Shown here: piece by piece, positions 2,523-15,071 of the stretch
Layout: each line of letters opens with the position of its first letter
Numbering within the stretch: the first letter of the stretch is position 1
Source of the DNA: a virus
Reading direction: 5' to 3' (one strand)
Length of the DNA: 23,307 nt
IMG/VR virus record: IMGVR_UViG_3300025646_005991
Span: 1-23,307 of that record
The notes under the pieces: model-generated
What the model saw: the letters and a program-made list of their open reading frames with translations, nothing else
Databases searched by the model: none
What the model was told of the DNA's origin: nothing
Made by a program: the position numbers and the translations under genes

Positions 2523-3041
2523 TCACGCCTCAAAATCCTTGTACAATCGGCTTCCTGTTGCGCCTTCCTGTCCTTGATACTTTCCTGCATACGGTTGAGC
2601 GGTTGGCTCGTCCAACTGAAAAAAAACAATTTGGCAAATCCTCACGCCTGCTTTCAAAAGGATTGGCTTCTCGCTCTGGTTGTACAGTTCAAGCGTGATC
2701 TGGCCTTGAAATCCAGAATCGACGAATCCAGCATTTTGAATCTGTAAGCCAAGCCTTCCCACTGACGAGCGACCAGCCACAAAAGCCGCTAAGTGATTCG
2801 GTACGCTGATCTTTTCCTGAGTTGAAGCCAGAACAAATTTGGAAGGCTCCAGCAAAAAATCTTCGGTCTGAACGTGTTGGTAAACGGATTCTGAATCCAG
2901 AAAGAGAAATTTTTGTTTTATGCCCAACTGAGCGAAGGTGTTGCCTAAGTGCAAATCAACACTACATGGCCCCACCTGGGCAAATCGTGGCAGGTGTCCA
3001 AGTTCTTTGAGTCCATTCAAAGTTTGGTGAGAGAGAATCAT
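2523..3041 (-). CDS. dcd: dCTP deaminase (dUTPase-related trimer)
   Basis: A 172-residue protein of the dCTP deaminase/dUTPase superfamily, which deaminates dCTP to dUTP (bifunctional members go on to dUMP) and feeds dTTP synthesis. Family motifs appear in order: CSVDLHLGN, EPSKFVLASTQEKI, AGRSSVGRLGL, NAGFVDSGFQGQITLELYN (with the catalytic glutamate in TLEL), and the C-terminal KYQGQEGATGSRL that closes over the triphosphate. The NAGF form replaces the TAH/TAG seen in classical enzymes, so mono- versus bifunctionality is open. The ATG at 3041 is preceded by GGCGGA at good spacing and overlaps the rusA stop by 4 bp. A TTG four codons upstream is less likely. Confidence 0.88.
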   Translation of the reverse strand: MILSHQTLNGLKELGHLPRFAQVGPCSVDLHLGNTFAQLGIKQKFLFLDSESVYQHVQTEDFLLEPSKFVLASTQEKISVPNHLAAFVAGRSSVGRLGLQIQNAGFVDSGFQGQITLELYNQSEKPILLKAGVRICQIVFFQLDEPTAQPYAGKYQGQEGATGSRLYKDFEA

Positions 3042-3424
3042 AAATCCGCCCAATCAAATTCTGTTGGTGAATAAATCCGAATCAGTCCGGTTTCTCCCCA
3101 TCGCTTTGAAGCGTGAACGTCCCAGACTTGCTTGTCTTCACTGAGTAAGGCATCAATCAAAGCCTTCAAGAGATTGTCAATGTCAGCGGTTTGTCTATGA
3201 GGTTTGCCGTTCATTGCTTTCTTTTTCTTGAGGCTCCAGCTTTTCGGCATAGGCAAAATGAATTCAACGGCAAAGCTGTCTGGAAGTTGAAACTTTTGTG
3301 TGTGAGCTTGAAGCCGTAAGGTGTCGCAGAAAACCCGATAGCGCAAAACCTCCGGCCTGACTCGCCACTTATCAGAGCGACTTTGGCGTGGTTTCGGAAC
3401 AGGTGAAACATGAAACGTTATCAA
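3038..3424 (-). CDS. rusA: RusA-family Holliday junction resolvase
   Basis: A 128-residue protein, close to the usual RusA length of about 120. Hallmarks are FILPMPKSWS, a basic loop KKKKAMNGKPH, the acidic TADIDNLLKALIDAL motif supplying metal-binding aspartates, and EDKQVWDVHASKRW. RusA cuts Holliday junctions symmetrically, resolving recombination intermediates or branched replicating DNA before packaging. The frame is open much further upstream, but that part lies antiphase inside the preceding gene. The natural start is a TTG at 3424 (MITFHVSPVPKP) overlapping the upstream stop as TTGA, giving family length. No strong ribosome-binding site is seen, which fits coupled translation. It sits with the Bet and replication genes. 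Confidence 0.88.
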   Translation of the reverse strand: MITFHVSPVPKPRQSRSDKWRVRPEVLRYRVFCDTLRLQAHTQKFQLPDSFAVEFILPMPKSWSLKKKKAMNGKPHRQTADIDNLLKALIDALLSEDKQVWDVHASKRWGETGLIRIYSPTEFDWADL

Positions 3425-3891
3425 GCAGCAACCGTTTTGACTAACTTCGCAAAGTATTGGCTTGGTGAATCGGTTTTGCTCGGTTTGTCCACTTTCACAG
3501 GTGTCTCGTCTTTCTTTGTCCAACGAACGATTGAGTCTGAATCCAGCCAGAAGCCAAAAGGTGCGCGACCAATCGCCTGAAAGAACTTCTGGCCTCCGCA
3601 TGGGTCCAAGCGTTTGCCTGTCGCTTTGAGTTCTGCTTCTTTCATAAGCCACTCGTCAGGTGTCTTACAAGCTTGGGTTCGGTTGCTGGTGTTGCGTTGT
3701 GCGTAACTGCGAAAAACGGCAACGGTTGGCAAGAAGTCACTCTTGAACTCTTTGACCATCCGGTTGAAACCTTCTTCGATTTGCTCTTCACTCAGGTCAT
3801 CAAGTCCAATCTGCCAAGCTTGAGCGAGTTCTGGGCTTGGCTTGGTTTTGTAGATTGCGCTTAATTTGCGTAGTAGCTCGACGGACTGCAT
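3421..3891 (-). CDS. Putative helicase loader / replication protein (lambda P-like position)
   Basis: A 156-residue protein. Its N-terminal half (ELLRKLSAIYKTKPSPELAQ, LSEEQIEEGFNRMVKEFKSD, FLPTVAVFRSYAQ) has the short-helix pattern seen in phage replication proteins that lie directly after an initiator and act as helicase loaders. The C-terminal half is a poorly conserved Lys-rich tail. It starts at an ATG 31 bp before the O-like gene ends and is followed by rusA with a TTGA overlap. The assignment relies mainly on position (O-like then P-like, as in lambda) and weak N-terminal resemblance. It has no ATPase motif, so an AAA-type DnaC-like loader is excluded. Confidence 0.55.
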   Translation of the reverse strand: MQSVELLRKLSAIYKTKPSPELAQAWQIGLDDLSEEQIEEGFNRMVKEFKSDFLPTVAVFRSYAQRNTSNRTQACKTPDEWLMKEAELKATGKRLDPCGGQKFFQAIGRAPFGFWLDSDSIVRWTKKDETPVKVDKPSKTDSPSQYFAKLVKTVAA

Positions 3892-4628: not shown

Positions 4629-5372
4629 TTAAGCGGCTTCAGTTGCGGTTGCCATCGTCTGAGCAATATCCTGCTCTACTTGCTTCTGTATCAACTTCAA
4701 TCGGTCTATCTCGCCTTTTTTCAAGTCACCTCGTTTGGCGTAGGCATTGGCTAGACTGTTTGCCTCTTCGAGTGCCTCTTGAGTCTGGCAGGATTCAAAT
4801 TGCTCTTTCAGCAGAAAGAAGGTTTGTGAGCCTTCAGGATTGATGACTTTTGGCGCTGGTGGTTCTTCTTCCTGTGCGTCCGGTTCTGGCGTAATTCCCG
4901 ATAGACCAAAGGCTAGTCGAATGGCCTGTTTCATTGCAGCATGGCGAAGCATCCGGCTGGGGTATTGTTTCCAAGGTTGGCTTCCAGTGTTGCACTCGCT
5001 CAAGAACTCAGTCACCACAGTTGGTCGCTGACGGTCTTTCCGGTAAATCGTTGCGGTGACGCTCACCACTTGGCCTTTTTCGTCTGTTGCATGATTGAAT
5101 TCGATTCCGTCAAACTGCGGATGCTGATTCATGATCTTGTTCCAACCATCGACACTCATCACAACGCTGATGCCACCGGATTTTGCCGGAAAGGCGTAAA
5201 TCTCTCTCGTCAATGGATTCAGGTTGTGCTGTTTGGCAACTGCCAGAAAAGCCATCAAATGCTCTGGCTTTGTGCCTGTTGGCAAAACCGTCTTGGACAA
5301 GACTTCTTGCAGCTCTTCCGGTTTTACCTGGCACTGTTGTGCCACTTGCACGATTAGGTTTTTTTCGGTCAT
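4629..5372 (-). CDS. bet: Bet/RecT-type single-strand annealing protein
   Basis: A 247-residue protein of the phage Bet family, which anneals complementary single strands during phage recombination. Recognisable segments are HLMAFLAVAKQHNLNPLTRE, IYAFPAKSGGISVVMSVDGW, QHPQFDGIEF, RMLRHAAMKQAIRLAFGLSG, and a Glu/Pro-rich linker leading to a helical tail. The ATG at 5372 (MTEKNLIV) has a strong AAGGA site at proper distance; an in-frame TTG upstream at 5393 is unlikely. It directly follows a PD-(D/E)XK-like protein that could supply the 5'-3' resection usually provided by lambda Exo, since no YqaJ-type exonuclease is seen. Confidence 0.88.
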   Translation of the reverse strand: MTEKNLIVQVAQQCQVKPEELQEVLSKTVLPTGTKPEHLMAFLAVAKQHNLNPLTREIYAFPAKSGGISVVMSVDGWNKIMNQHPQFDGIEFNHATDEKGQVVSVTATIYRKDRQRPTVVTEFLSECNTGSQPWKQYPSRMLRHAAMKQAIRLAFGLSGITPEPDAQEEEPPAPKVINPEGSQTFFLLKEQFESCQTQEALEEANSLANAYAKRGDLKKGEIDRLKLIQKQVEQDIAQTMATATEAA

Positions 5373-5382
5373 TGGTTCCTTA

Positions 5383-5994
5383 TTAGTTTTCAAGAGGTTT
5401 CACTCCATTCACTTGGATTGTGAAGTTGTTGAAAATGGCTCCAAAAAGCTCGCTTGGCTCAATTGCAAAATTAAGCGTTTCGTAACCTTTGTTCTGTGCC
5501 GCAATAAGCTGATCTTCTCTCTGCAACCACTTTTGTTTGTGTTTCTGCCAAACAATTTGAAGTGGCCCTACTGGCAGCATATAAATTAGGCCAAGTCCTT
5601 TGACGTAATAGGCAATGTAATCCGCAAGCAAAGGCTTGCACACCCATCCTGGGCTATTTCTTCGGTTGTTGCTCACATACTCAAGAAGTATGTCTGTGTA
5701 GACTCTGCCGCTTTTGCTTGGGTAGCGTATCTTTTCATCAATCACATAATTCTTGCCACCGTCACAAATTACTTGTCGATCTCCACCAAGCCTTTGAAAG
5801 TCTGAATCCCTCTGAAAATAAACAGAACATTTAAAGTTGGGAAAAAACTTTTTGTAGGCTTCTTCCCAAACAGGTAACTCACTATCCAAGTGTGAGTCGT
5901 TCAGTTGCTTATAAAAATCGTTCACTGGCTCAGTAACTGATACCTGATAATCTAAGAACAGGTCTAATTGATTTGGTTGCCCCACTGGCTCCAA
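5383..5994 (-). CDS. PD-(D/E)XK nuclease-like protein
   Basis: A 203-residue protein. The central part shows DFQRLGGDRQVICDGGKNYV then IDEKIRYPSKSG, followed by TDILLEYVSNNRR and PGWVCKPLLADYIAYYV. The order D, then DEK, then a DIxLEY strand looks like a PD-(D/E)XK nuclease core, and I associate this pattern with an uncharacterised phage family. The nuclease role is an inference from motifs. Its position between a DNA methyltransferase and bet suggests a recombination or modification partner. The first start is a TTG at 5994 lying 31 bp inside the methyltransferase gene; a GTG at 5985 preceded by AAGG and GGAG is an alternative. The stop overlaps the TTG-extended bet frame but not the chosen bet start. 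Confidence 0.6.
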   Translation of the reverse strand: MEPVGQPNQLDLFLDYQVSVTEPVNDFYKQLNDSHLDSELPVWEEAYKKFFPNFKCSVYFQRDSDFQRLGGDRQVICDGGKNYVIDEKIRYPSKSGRVYTDILLEYVSNNRRNSPGWVCKPLLADYIAYYVKGLGLIYMLPVGPLQIVWQKHKQKWLQREDQLIAAQNKGYETLNFAIEPSELFGAIFNNFTIQVNGVKPLEN

Positions 5995-6935
5995 CCTTCT
6001 CTTGCAGTCCTTGCAAAGAGTTCAAGTTTCTTTGCTTCTGAAAAAGCTGAGTCAATCCACTCTATGAATTCAACAGGCTTGGCGCTGTGCTTTGTCCTTG
6101 AGTAGCTGAAGATAGAAGAGTGTCTGTGGTCTGGCTCTGGTGGTGAAAAGTTGCCTTTGGTTGCAACAAACAAAAGTTCATGTTGCCCACGAAACCAGTA
6201 GCCCATTCCTATTTTTTGCTTGTCCCAGATAGCATGAGTTTTATAGGTCAATCCCCAAGCATCAATGACCATGAAAGCCTCTCTTAACTTTGGTGCTGTT
6301 GCCCATAGCAGAAGCAAGCTGTCGGCAGCAAAAGGCACTTGCATTTCACAGATTTCATCAATCTTCATGGTTGGGTAGTGATTCGCCAAATCTCTGCTTT
6401 GAGTTTCTGCAAAATCATAATCCCAAGGCGGATCTGCATAAACTAAATTAAACTCTCCTTCTGGCAGAACAGTCTTAGGTAACTCGGCATGTTCTGCCTT
6501 CTTCTTTTGAAGTTGAAAATCCTTGGATTCTCGCAGCATTAAAGATTGAGTCAGTTCCTTTTTTTCTTCTTTGGTTTCCTCAATTACTTCTTCAAAAATT
6601 ACTTCAGGTAAGTCAGCAATCTGTTGCCAACGCATGGATTGTGTCTTTTCAATGCCTAAGTCTTTCAGGCTTGGAGCACTGGTTGCACGATGCAACCGGT
6701 GCTTGCTAGTATCACCACCTCCTTTATTCTTCTGCATTTCCTTCAGTAACTCGCCACCTTTGCGCTCGGCTCTAAGCTTTGTTTCTGCGGCCTGATTCTG
6801 CATTTCTAAAGAATAACCAGCAGCTTTAACGTAAGCCTTTATAGCTTCCGCTTGATCTCGTATTTCCTTAATTTCTTGCAGTGTCGAAGCTTCTTCTAAA
6901 GCTCTTCTAGCTGCATCTAGTTTAACGAGTTGCAT
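5964..6935 (-). CDS. MT-A70 family adenine methyltransferase
   Basis: A 323-residue protein. Residues 165-171 contain YADPPW, the catalytic DPPW motif of MT-A70 N6-adenine methyltransferases, followed by family segments (SLLLLWATAPKLREAF, MGYWFRGQHELLFVATKG, HSAKPVEFIEWI, KLELFARTAREGW). Residues about 1-150 are helical and charged (AETKLRAERKGGELLKEMQK), a common N-terminal extension in phage members and probably involved in DNA recognition. Such enzymes methylate adenine in phage DNA, protecting it from host restriction or marking it; the site is unknown. The ATG has AGAGAAG upstream. No cognate restriction gene is nearby, consistent with an orphan, self-protecting methyltransferase. The 125 bp upstream (6936-7060) holds no gene. 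Confidence 0.87.
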   Translation of the reverse strand: MQLVKLDAARRALEEASTLQEIKEIRDQAEAIKAYVKAAGYSLEMQNQAAETKLRAERKGGELLKEMQKNKGGGDTSKHRLHRATSAPSLKDLGIEKTQSMRWQQIADLPEVIFEEVIEETKEEKKELTQSLMLRESKDFQLQKKKAEHAELPKTVLPEGEFNLVYADPPWDYDFAETQSRDLANHYPTMKIDEICEMQVPFAADSLLLLWATAPKLREAFMVIDAWGLTYKTHAIWDKQKIGMGYWFRGQHELLFVATKGNFSPPEPDHRHSSIFSYSRTKHSAKPVEFIEWIDSAFSEAKKLELFARTAREGWSQWGNQIN

Positions 6936-12335: not shown

Positions 12336-13625
12336 TTAAATGGTTAAAGCTGACTCGACTTCAGCTTGCGTAAAACCTAAACGGAATAGTTTGCAGTTTG
12401 GATCTTCTTGCAGTTCTTGCTGATATTTTATGGTCACACCATCCAAATCCGTTTCGGTTCTGACTCGGTGCGTAGCATCTGTAATCCCTGCATCTTCTGG
12501 CGCTAAGTCTCCTGTTCTGAACCAGTTTAGCCTGTTATCTAGTAACGCTTGGTACTGCTGTTGCCAGCCTGACAGGTTTTGATTTTTAATGTATTCGTAA
12601 TCAAATCTGGTATTTAAATGCTTTGGAATCCCTCGCATACCGATAATCTCCTTTAGTTTAGTGATTTCTAGGGTTTGCAATAAATGATAAGTGTTCGCCC
12701 AACTTGCCCAACCTTCATACGATGCTAGTGTTGAACGAAATCGAATGCTGCTACAAGCAGGCCAGTTCTTTTTGAGCTCACTGATCCTTTGAATCATTTG
12801 TTTTGCTGTTGATTTTCGTAACAGTTTCTTTGTAGGGAAATGGCGATAACCAACAAAATCAACGCCTGTCTCGACAGGCTTTAGCGACCACCTGCTAATT
12901 TCTAGTTTTAATGATCTCTTTAAAAAATCTACAATATTTACACGAACAAATTGCAGCCATTCCTTGCTATCGCCAAATATTAAAAAATCATCAACGTAAC
13001 GGCAATATCCTTTGATTCTATATTTGTGTTTTAAGTATTGGTCTAATTCATTTAAGTATAAATTGCCAAACCATTGGCTTGTGTAATTCCCTATTGGGCA
13101 GCCTTCGGCACTACTGATGATTTCTTTAATTAGCATTAAAGTGCGTTTGCATTTTATCTTTTGCTGAACAACAGAAAATAAAATCTGATGGTCAACACTC
13201 GGATAAAACTTCCGAATATCCATTTGCAAACAGTATTTATATTTTTGCACACAGCTCTGAGCATAGTTGCTGGCTCGGTGAAGTCCTAATTGTTTACGAC
13301 AAGCAAAACTTTGCGCTAATAAAACCCTGTCCCAGATTGGCTCAAGGATCTGGATAATAGCGTGTTGGACGATTCTTTCAGGAGCAAATGGAAGCACATA
13401 AATTATTCTGCGTTTTGGTTTTAGAATCTCTTTTATACGGTATTGGCTGGTCTGGTACTTACCATCTACTAATTGCTTGCGGATTTCCGCCAATCCTACT
13501 TCGCTACGATTGTCAAATTCTTGGACTACTCGCTGCCAAGACTTACCTTTTCTTGCGTTGCGATAGGCAAGATTTAAATTGTCAGCAGACACAATCTGCT
13601 CAAAAAGATTCCCGTGACGTTTCAT
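12336..13625 (-). CDS. DGR reverse transcriptase
   Basis: A 429-residue reverse transcriptase with RT motifs in order: KPKRRIIYVLPFAPERIVQH, LQMDIRKFYPSVDH (catalytic Asp136), GCPIGNYTSQWFGNLYLNEL, and CRYVDDFLIFG (Asp212, Asp213). The IGNxTSQ motif at 178-184 is the form typical of retroelement RTs associated with diversity generation, replacing QGxxxSP of most others. After the thumb-like region (to about 320) a C-terminal extension of roughly 80-100 residues (LLDNRLNWFRTGDLAPEDAG onwards) ends in an acidic segment. It makes error-prone cDNA from the TR transcript, misincorporating at adenines, and the cDNA replaces VR. The TR lies about 100 bp upstream. No avd-like accessory gene is seen beside it. 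Confidence 0.95.
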   Translation of the reverse strand: MKRHGNLFEQIVSADNLNLAYRNARKGKSWQRVVQEFDNRSEVGLAEIRKQLVDGKYQTSQYRIKEILKPKRRIIYVLPFAPERIVQHAIIQILEPIWDRVLLAQSFACRKQLGLHRASNYAQSCVQKYKYCLQMDIRKFYPSVDHQILFSVVQQKIKCKRTLMLIKEIISSAEGCPIGNYTSQWFGNLYLNELDQYLKHKYRIKGYCRYVDDFLIFGDSKEWLQFVRVNIVDFLKRSLKLEISRWSLKPVETGVDFVGYRHFPTKKLLRKSTAKQMIQRISELKKNWPACSSIRFRSTLASYEGWASWANTYHLLQTLEITKLKEIIGMRGIPKHLNTRFDYEYIKNQNLSGWQQQYQALLDNRLNWFRTGDLAPEDAGITDATHRVRTETDLDGVTIKYQQELQEDPNCKLFRLGFTQAEVESALTI

Positions 13626-13728
13626 TTTCTAGAGAGATGTCCTTCGCTCTCACTACCAAACACCTCTCCCACCGTTGTGTATTTTGGCAAAAGCCAAGGT
13701 GAGCCAGCCAGCCAGTGGTGTTGTGGCC

Positions 13729-13847
13729 CTCTCACTGTCTCTGCGTGACCCGATGTTGTCGTTGAGATTCAAAGGTGAATTATTCCAATTGACACTGCGT
13801 GACCTGGATTTCGTGCCATTGTTCCAATTGCTGCCCACGATCCCGTG
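13729..13847 (-). repeat. DGR template repeat (TR)
   Basis: The 119-bp segment aligns without gaps to 13903-14021. It differs at 26 positions, 22 of them where TR has A on the minus strand. TR contains 38 adenines there, so 22 of 38 are changed against 4 of 81 other bases. Adenines are concentrated in AAT/AAC-type codons of the corresponding VR frame (for example NWNN), as expected for a template tuned for diversity. It lies between the target gene and the RT gene. Confidence 0.95.
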
Positions 13848-13869
13848 CTGTAACAACGGTACTGCCTCA

Positions 13870-13882
13870 CCCTCCCAGAGGG
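13870..13882. other. Small GC-rich hairpin downstream of VR
   Basis: CCCTC-CCA-GAGGG gives a 5-bp stem with a 3-nt loop about 20 bp past the VR 3' end and 10 bp past the target stop codon. In the Bordetella phage DGR a hairpin just downstream of VR is needed for efficient target recognition. The equivalence here is inferred from position. Confidence 0.4.
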
Positions 13883-13892
13883 ACTTTTAAAA

Positions 13893-15071
13893 TTAGTACA
13901 GACTCCCACTAACTCCGCGCGACCCGACGTTGCCGTCGAGAATCAAAGGTGAATAATACCAACCGACACCGCGCGACCCGCACTTCGCGCCATCGTTAAA
14001 ATCGCCGCCCACGAGCCCGCGATTTGGAACTGAGTATCCTTGACCCCGACCGATAGAATTAGCTCCATCGTATGTCGTTCCGTCGGAGGCGGTGTCTTGA
14101 ACTGCCCAACTAGCTGCACCACCGTCAGATCCGGTTTCATTGGCCCATTGCCACAATGCGCCTGCACAGTCTTCACACCCGACATTTGAGATCATTCTGC
14201 GACTAGCTGTGTCACTGTGGCCTCCAGTCGTTCCAGGGTCTGCTGATCCACTGATATTGGTTTCTTCATTGCTGCCAATAGCTAGAGCCATAAACTCGGC
14301 TTGTGTGGGGAGTCTTTTGTCGATTTCCGCAAATCTCTCTACAAAATTATACCAGTGATAATCGGGGTTGCTTGCCCCATCAACGATGGTTCCACCGTAA
14401 CTGGATTCCAGCGTTGTGGTATTACTGGCTAAGTAAATATCCGCCCAAAGTTTATTACCCACATAAACCATTCCTTCTGGACTTGAAGTTGGACGATGTT
14501 GCGCTTGTGTCCAGACACTTCGAGGCAGAATATCCCCATCGAGGTAACCTGTTAGGGAGTGCCCACTAATTGTCCCAACATCAACACACAGACAGTGGAA
14601 TCCGCCAATCTTGCGAGAGTTTGTGGCACTGGCTGTCACACCTCCAACCGTTCCATCAGGATAGGTAGAATTGGAGCTTAAGCAGAAATTTGGAGTGGTT
14701 CCCGAACTAGGTTCTACCGCATAAATATAGACATCCTCTCCATTGCGGTTTGCTGCTGTTGCTTTGGAGGTTTCATTACTCGCCCAAGAACCTGTTGTGT
14801 CTGCGTCCAGTGTGGTAGCAGTCGAAAGTGTGTAAACAGTGGCGTTGATTTGTAGTTGCACAGCCGGAATATTTACTGTCCGCCTTTCTGAAGCTGTAGC
14901 AGAACCAGCATAAAATCCAGCACTGACATCATTTCCACCTGTGATTTGCTGCTCGGCTAAATACCAGTTGGGGATTGTAGGCGGAACGGCCTGAACCGAA
15001 CCCCCAAAGCTGATTAGACCACCGGATTCAGTGGCTAAAGTCACACTGTTTAGTTGAATTTCACCTGCCAT
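13893..15071 (-). CDS. DGR target protein with FGE/C-type-lectin-fold C-terminus
   Basis: A 392-residue protein. Residues 1-40 resemble the N-terminal attachment parts of the neighbouring fibre proteins. Residues about 170-392 show the FGE-sulfatase-like form of the C-type lectin fold used by DGR targets: GFHCLCVDVG, KRLPTQAEFMALAIG, CAGALWQWANE, then the variable C-terminus GLVGGDFNDGAKCGSRGVGW with SPLILDGNVGSR. The last 37 or so residues are encoded by VR. Adenine-driven changes relative to the template include N to D, G, Y or I, S to C or G and R to G. GGTGAG lies at good spacing before the ATG. Position after fibre genes suggests a receptor-binding tip or adhesin whose binding face is diversified. 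Confidence 0.93.
   Translation of the reverse strand: MAGEIQLNSVTLATESGGLISFGGSVQAVPPTIPNWYLAEQQITGGNDVSAGFYAGSATASERRTVNIPAVQLQINATVYTLSTATTLDADTTGSWASNETSKATAANRNGEDVYIYAVEPSSGTTPNFCLSSNSTYPDGTVGGVTASATNSRKIGGFHCLCVDVGTISGHSLTGYLDGDILPRSVWTQAQHRPTSSPEGMVYVGNKLWADIYLASNTTTLESSYGGTIVDGASNPDYHWYNFVERFAEIDKRLPTQAEFMALAIGSNEETNISGSADPGTTGGHSDTASRRMISNVGCEDCAGALWQWANETGSDGGAASWAVQDTASDGTTYDGANSIGRGQGYSVPNRGLVGGDFNDGAKCGSRGVGWYYSPLILDGNVGSRGVSGSLY
13903..14021 (-). repeat. DGR variable repeat (VR)
   Basis: This is the 3' end of the target gene, homologous to TR (13729-13847). Substitutions fall at template adenines (22 of 26 mismatches), to G, T or C on the minus strand. Four non-adenine differences (VR 13911, 13981, 13998, 13999) break the rule. 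It ends 8 bp before the stop codon; TR/VR identity there probably includes the homing-initiation segment. Confidence 0.95.

Follow-up and report, generated by a model that had tools for sequence, protein, structure and literature searches.

A probable Mtd-type phage diversity-generating retroelement with a fused reverse transcriptase and a TR-RT cassette that is present or absent as a unit

Introduction

The founding example of diversity-generating retroelements (DGRs) is the type that acts on Mtd-like tail proteins, so the DGR core described here is not new. In phage BPP-1 (mtd-avd-TR-brt, NC_005357), the Mtd-type target gene carries a variable region (VR) at its 3′ end, and the TR lies between the target and the reverse transcriptase (RT). 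Avd, encoded by the majority of known DGRs although not by all of them (PMC10053308), is essential in BPP-1; in that phage the TR-RT spacer both brings in the RT complex and serves to prime synthesis of the cDNA (PMC12875486). The hairpins of published phage DGRs have stems of 7–10 bp and GRNA loops, with an 8-bp stem in BPP-1 (PMC3240598), and DGR transfer between genomes has already been described in general (PMC8144416).

The locus reported here resembles that of BPP-1 in its Mtd-type target with a 3′ VR, the placement of the TR, a homologous RT, the IMH/IMH* logic, a TR-RT spacer RNA, and lysis genes downstream. Unlike BPP-1, it has no Avd between mtd and TR, its RT is fused to a C-terminal domain (CTD), and a weak inverted repeat stands in contrast to the 8-bp stem with its GRNA loop. 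The closest annotated relative is Caudoviricetes sp. vir525 (BK063673, host given as Methanosarcinales; RT 47%, Mtd 51%), which has the same spacer RNA, as do loci with the layout mtd-RT-accessory-CTD (L027, L028, L046, L048, L049, L054, L056, L062, and L066). Unlike the present locus, vir525 and these related loci keep an accessory ORF of roughly 97 aa between the RT and the next gene, and their RT is separate.

Results

Gene layout of the phage contig

The window analysed here is a whole 23.3-kb IMG/VR virus contig, and this contig is probably incomplete. The phage is tailed and probably temperate; the window encodes a tape measure protein, an integrase and a CI-type repressor (Pfam), and an endolysin of the M15-peptidase type (Pfam, PHROG). 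No tRNA gene that would indicate an attachment site was found in it. On the minus strand, tail genes are followed by the mtd-like target, the TR, the RT, two small genes, and the endolysin. The target ORF (13893–15071, minus strand) and the RT ORF (12336–13625, minus strand) are both intact, and target, VR, TR, and RT lie where the preliminary description had placed them.

Other minus-strand genes include one at 38–646 for a hexapeptide-repeat acyltransferase-like protein (PF00132), which looks LpxA-like and may point to host surface modification, and those at 5964–6935, 2523–3053, and 3038–3652 for an MT-A70 adenine methyltransferase, a dCTP deaminase/dUTPase-like protein, and a RusA resolvase. 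A RecT-family annealing protein (PF03837) is encoded at 4629–5393, also on the minus strand; it could serve module exchange and perhaps cDNA integration.

An Mtd-type target and a DGR-type reverse transcriptase

The 392-aa target protein matches the second domain of Mtd (PF21916, E = 6e-14), the tail protein family phrog_11262, and, over residues 147–389, the solved Mtd structures 1yu0–1yu4 and 2iou. The same residues align with 1yu4 residues 131–376, the VR region included, so that sequence alignment to structures recovers both the middle domain of Mtd and a variable C-terminus of the C-type-lectin type, for which motifs had been noted before. From this homology, we infer that the target is a tail receptor-binding protein of Mtd type, whose receptor-binding surface would be expected to change faster.

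The RT part (12639–13625, minus strand) comprises 329 residues of a fused 429-aa ORF and contains the IGNYTSQ and YVDD motifs noted earlier. It matches PF00078 and phrog_1423 (E = 2.5e-110), and its best PDB match is 8ub7 (201.9 bits over residues 2–320, versus 103 for the best group II intron RT). It shares 36% identity with BPP-1 brt, groups with other RTs that adjoin mtd genes, and is intact and strongly conserved in all members of its clade.

Adenine-restricted variation in VR

The best ungapped repeat pair joins VR (14019–13903) to TR (13845–13729) on the minus strand over 117 nt with 25 mismatches. These affect 21 of the 37 adenines in TR but 4 of its 80 remaining bases (Fisher P = 1.0e-9; offset score 54.5, next-best offset 12.5). 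Extending the pair by two bases at its 5′ edge brings in one more adenine mismatch and reproduces the 119-bp alignment reported at the outset (26 mismatches, 22 of 38 adenines). Three of the non-adenine mismatches of the window VR lie upstream of its terminal 23 nt.

Related virus contigs sharing the locus (RT identity 97–100%) provided a series of nine alleles, in which enrichment of substitutions at TR adenines, anticipated for related genomes, was indeed found. Across the first 94 nt of VR (13926–14019, minus strand), 26 of 30 TR-adenine columns vary, versus 7 of 64 other columns (P = 7e-13). Along the last 23 nt (13903–13925, minus strand), none of the seven TR-adenine columns varies, yet the TR differs there; these tracts of VR and TR behave as expected of IMH and IMH*, respectively. 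The count of 22 changed adenines therefore stands, although four of them are fixed IMH/IMH* differences and not fresh mutagenesis, because their columns are invariant among the nine related alleles.

The TRs of the related contigs fall into five nearly identical versions, and their VRs are highly diverse. Three non-adenine TR polymorphisms recur in the VR of the contig that carries them, L011 providing the one exception. Nearly invariant TRs, diverse VRs, and these shared markers together point to information flow from TR to VR. Two assemblies of one phage from different metagenomes, L003 and L004, show 9 differences over 13,284 bases, two of them at VR adenine sites; by simple arithmetic, the chance of two or more differences falling in VR is about 0.003. 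Adenine-restricted variation among relatives over a near-invariant TR makes recent activity of the DGR core credible, in keeping with the active-looking pair first described.

An inverted repeat behind VR (13870–13882, minus strand; stem CCCTC/GAGGG, loop TGG) has only a 5-bp stem and folds no better than shuffled sequences; a search for a strong hairpin or cruciform behind VR returned nothing better. It belongs to the cassette defined below and is absent at empty sites. The element had been called complete, a description that holds for the core and not for the Avd gene, which was not found, or for this weak repeat.

A covarying RNA in the TR-RT spacer

The spacer contains a structured RNA element (13608–13691, minus strand); across 27 loci, two-sided compensatory changes occur at 10 of 10 predicted pairs. 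Pairing holds in 88.4% of cells (53.4% after shuffling), and the signal vanishes once the partners are slid against each other. The long spacer stem, as the window itself folds, pairs 13669–13658 with 13642–13631. A model built from the element matches the window (68.2 bits) and finds loci outside its training set (L016, L049, L030, L052, L048, L079, and L199), with no match in BPP-1 or at empty sites. By analogy, this RNA may have the role of the BPP-1 spacer. Rfam RF03020 (RT-17 RNA) aligns over its full length to 13701–13617 on the minus strand at 25 bits (E = 0.11), below its gathering score of 40.4, and relatives gave no Rfam match at gathering; the spacer was not assigned to RT-17.

Fusion of the RT to a gene that is separate elsewhere

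The last 100 residues of the RT ORF, the CTD (12336–12638, minus strand), begin at an internal methionine with its ATG at 12638 and are homologous to a separate gene behind mtd elsewhere. Throughout the window clade the RT is fused to the CTD in an open frame, whereas in L013–L015, L022, L023, and L025 the CTD is a free-standing gene directly behind mtd, with no RT in those contigs; free-standing homologues also occur in distant loci. A possible ribosome-binding site, AAAGGAG (12648–12654, minus strand), precedes the internal ATG by 9 nt, and aligned clade members retain its AAGGAG core; a free CTD is therefore probably made besides the fusion. A similar AAAGGAGG occurs in the other fused locus L199.

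The CTD gave nothing above cut-off in Pfam and no match in PHROG. Its predicted fold is confident (pLDDT 89) and has no significant counterpart among PDB folds, the one match being an uncharacterised viral protein, so that it could not be assigned to a known domain. Similarity to BPP-1 Bbp4 is confined to 14 C-terminal residues, and homology is not claimed. As the CTD remains beside mtd even in RT-free contigs, we favour a role in the tail or in tail assembly.

A census took in 113 loci, 80 from IMG/VR that were retrieved with the CTD and 33 from genomes, some near-duplicates among them. It gave the layouts mtd-RT-accessory-CTD in 39, mtd-CTD in 16, fused mtd-RT-CTD in 12 plus one fragment, and unfused mtd-RT-CTD without an accessory ORF in five, one of these with a truncated RT. 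Since mtd-CTD and mtd-RT(-accessory)-CTD layouts both occur, mtd and CTD read as a recognition module that receives a TR-RT(-accessory) block. One decayed relative (L043:5003-5680) has a TR-like sequence and then an RT without its N-terminal part, adjoined by intact mtd and CTD genes.

The window clade groups with L180 and L185 (support 97/89), which lack the accessory ORF and keep RT and CTD as separate, abutting genes; this nearest branch suggests that the accessory gene was lost first and the fusion came later. A second fused pair, L199 (a virus contig) and L052 (an Elusimicrobia MAG), is joined in the same place with no accessory ORF between and lies on another RT branch (support 100/100). 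A single origin of all RT-CTD fusions was neither shown nor rejected (AU p = 0.11).

The accessory gene of related DGRs

Between RT and CTD, related DGRs encode an ORF of roughly 97 aa with no Pfam match and a predicted order of strand-strand-strand-helix-strand-strand, OB-like; in alphaproteobacterial and Rickettsiales genomes it lies just before the RT. Examples of this beta-rich ORF (KRFSDFAEE...) include L027:5684-5977, L028:5675-5983, L016:8986-9279, and L063:4996-5271, among others. It is not Avd, and its fold search gave no significant matches; it is a candidate accessory protein that may substitute for Avd. For L163:3357-5312 and L154, the profile census gave an RT-less mtd-accessory-CTD layout, which could be an intermediate on the way to losing the cassette; the L163 accessory match is absent among the listed ORFs of 80 aa or more.

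The searched sequence yielded no accessory gene for the present DGR, either Avd or an alternative. The bAvd model PF22296 has no match in the window, the only sequence to which it was applied, and searches of the window and of four clade contigs, which are incomplete, recovered neither PF05635 (Avd-related) nor the small accessory ORF.

A cassette within an exchanged module

Exact alignment of filled and empty sites delimits a TR-RT cassette of 1246 bp (13884–12639, minus strand), present or absent as a unit, that runs from just after the mtd stop and TTTTAAAA to the CTD ATG. Between phages, the cassette as a whole is about 99% identical, its RT core about 97–99% and the spacers 96–100%, while the flanks are more divergent (mtd body mostly 82–94%, CTD mostly 84–91%). 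Synonymous codon differences from the window number 8–12 of 328 in the RT core versus 46–99 of about 345 in mtd. Because its identity exceeds that of mtd and CTD, synonymous sites included, the cassette is the most recently spread or homogenised part of the module. In the 13.3 kb of L003 compared, DNA shared with the window is detectable only between the mtd start and a point just beyond the CTD, a pattern indicating that the mtd-CTD module passes between otherwise different phages.

At empty sites, VRs match TR except at adenines; in L022, differences occupy 2 of 64 other positions and 20 of 30 adenines. The mtd bodies of L010 (filled) and L022 (empty) are 99.3% identical. Since these VRs are already adenine-diversified and the two mtd genes are near-identical, the empty sites in this clade reflect cassette loss or import of an already diversified mtd. 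RT supplied in trans was rejected as far as the cassette-free contigs reach: none was found in them, including contigs of 65–123 kb, which may be incomplete. Chimeric assembly could link flanks wrongly, but neither exact empty sites nor the occurrence of one cassette in several metagenomes would arise from it. Several clade contigs (L038, L039, L032, and L012) terminate within the cassette, which would be expected of assemblies that break where several phages of a sample share sequence.

Discussion

Alternative explanations

Derivation of the RT from a group II intron or retron, with a coincidental repeat pair, has a negligible probability. The best NCBIfam model is indeed the group II RT/maturase TIGR04416, at 130.8 bits against a cut-off of 300 (the retron model reaches 53.7 against 235), yet 8ub7 and BPP-1 brt match far better; the RT clusters with other RTs that adjoin mtd genes; and the adenine-specific pattern across nine alleles contradicts coincidence. 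It is likewise very improbable that the high identity of the cassette reflects unusual constraint instead of recent spread. The RNA portion of the cassette, TR and spacer, is structured and constrained, but low divergence extends to synonymous sites across the whole RT core and stops at the mtd stop and the CTD start.

How the element manages without a neighbouring accessory gene admits several readings. It may work as in BPP-1, with the accessory encoded by the host or in phage sequence that the contigs lack, a reading that is plausible though short of an even chance: Avd is essential in BPP-1, and of the several contigs searched (the longest 31 kb) none is shown to be complete, while the accessory ORF adjoins the RT in all related DGRs seen here and none was found in the window or the four clade contigs searched for it. 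It is also possible, if rather doubtful, that the cassette is a self-sufficient plug-in that dispenses with a separate accessory, or uses the fused CTD instead, and is gained and lost at a fixed site behind the receptor gene, so that phages would turn targeted receptor evolution on or off. We consider it improbable that the element is a defective remnant in which VR diversity predates accessory loss and RT fusion and VR alleles now merely recombine. Such decay would fit the missing Avd or small accessory ORF, the sister phages that lost the cassette and keep diversified VRs, and the truncated RT in L043; against it stand the strongly conserved RT, the five TR versions, with non-adenine markers that are mostly found again in the VR of their own contig, and the differences at VR adenine sites between the otherwise nearly identical L003 and L004.

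Proposed organisation and mechanism

The window thus very probably carries an Mtd-type phage DGR with a recently active core, an RT-CTD fusion, no adjacent accessory gene, and a removable cassette. The core comprises a DGR-type RT, an adenine-biased TR/VR pair, transfer that apparently runs from TR to VR, and an IMH/IMH* boundary; homology of target and RT, with adenine-restricted allele variation, supports the original proposal of a phage DGR acting on an Mtd-type receptor-binding protein. Counting against this reading are the failure to find Avd or another accessory in a contig that is probably incomplete, the weak inverted repeat, and the three non-adenine mismatches that the window VR has upstream of its IMH tract.

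In the proposed mechanism, the RT encoded by the element would copy a transcript spanning TR and the spacer RNA into cDNA, making errors at adenines. This cDNA would take the place of VR in the 3′-terminal part of mtd, up to a 3′ boundary defined by the IMH tract, thereby diversifying the binding surface of the tail receptor-binding protein. Because the RT frame enters the CTD while the start and putative ribosome-binding site of the CTD survive, both an RT-CTD fusion and, probably, a free CTD would be made. The small accessory gene of related DGRs appears to be missing, with no Avd replacing it in the known sequence, and the element may be independent of an accessory protein. The 1.25-kb TR-RT cassette is a removable unit inside an mtd-CTD recognition module exchanged between phages, perhaps by homologous recombination.

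The papers searched, among which the large DGR survey doi 10.1093/nar/gkx1150 did not figure, describe neither the RT-CTD fusion nor the accessory ORF nor exact cassette presence and absence; the accessory ORF may thus have been reported before.

Significance

A beta-rich gene of roughly 97 aa, unmatched in Pfam, accompanies this RT clade in both phages and bacterial genomes and is a candidate substitute for Avd. A DGR that has neither Avd nor another recognised helper, and has a strongly covarying spacer RNA, offers a test of which parts are essential. Filled and empty versions of one recognition locus, with nearly identical mtd genes in L010 and L022, may show what a DGR is worth to a phage.
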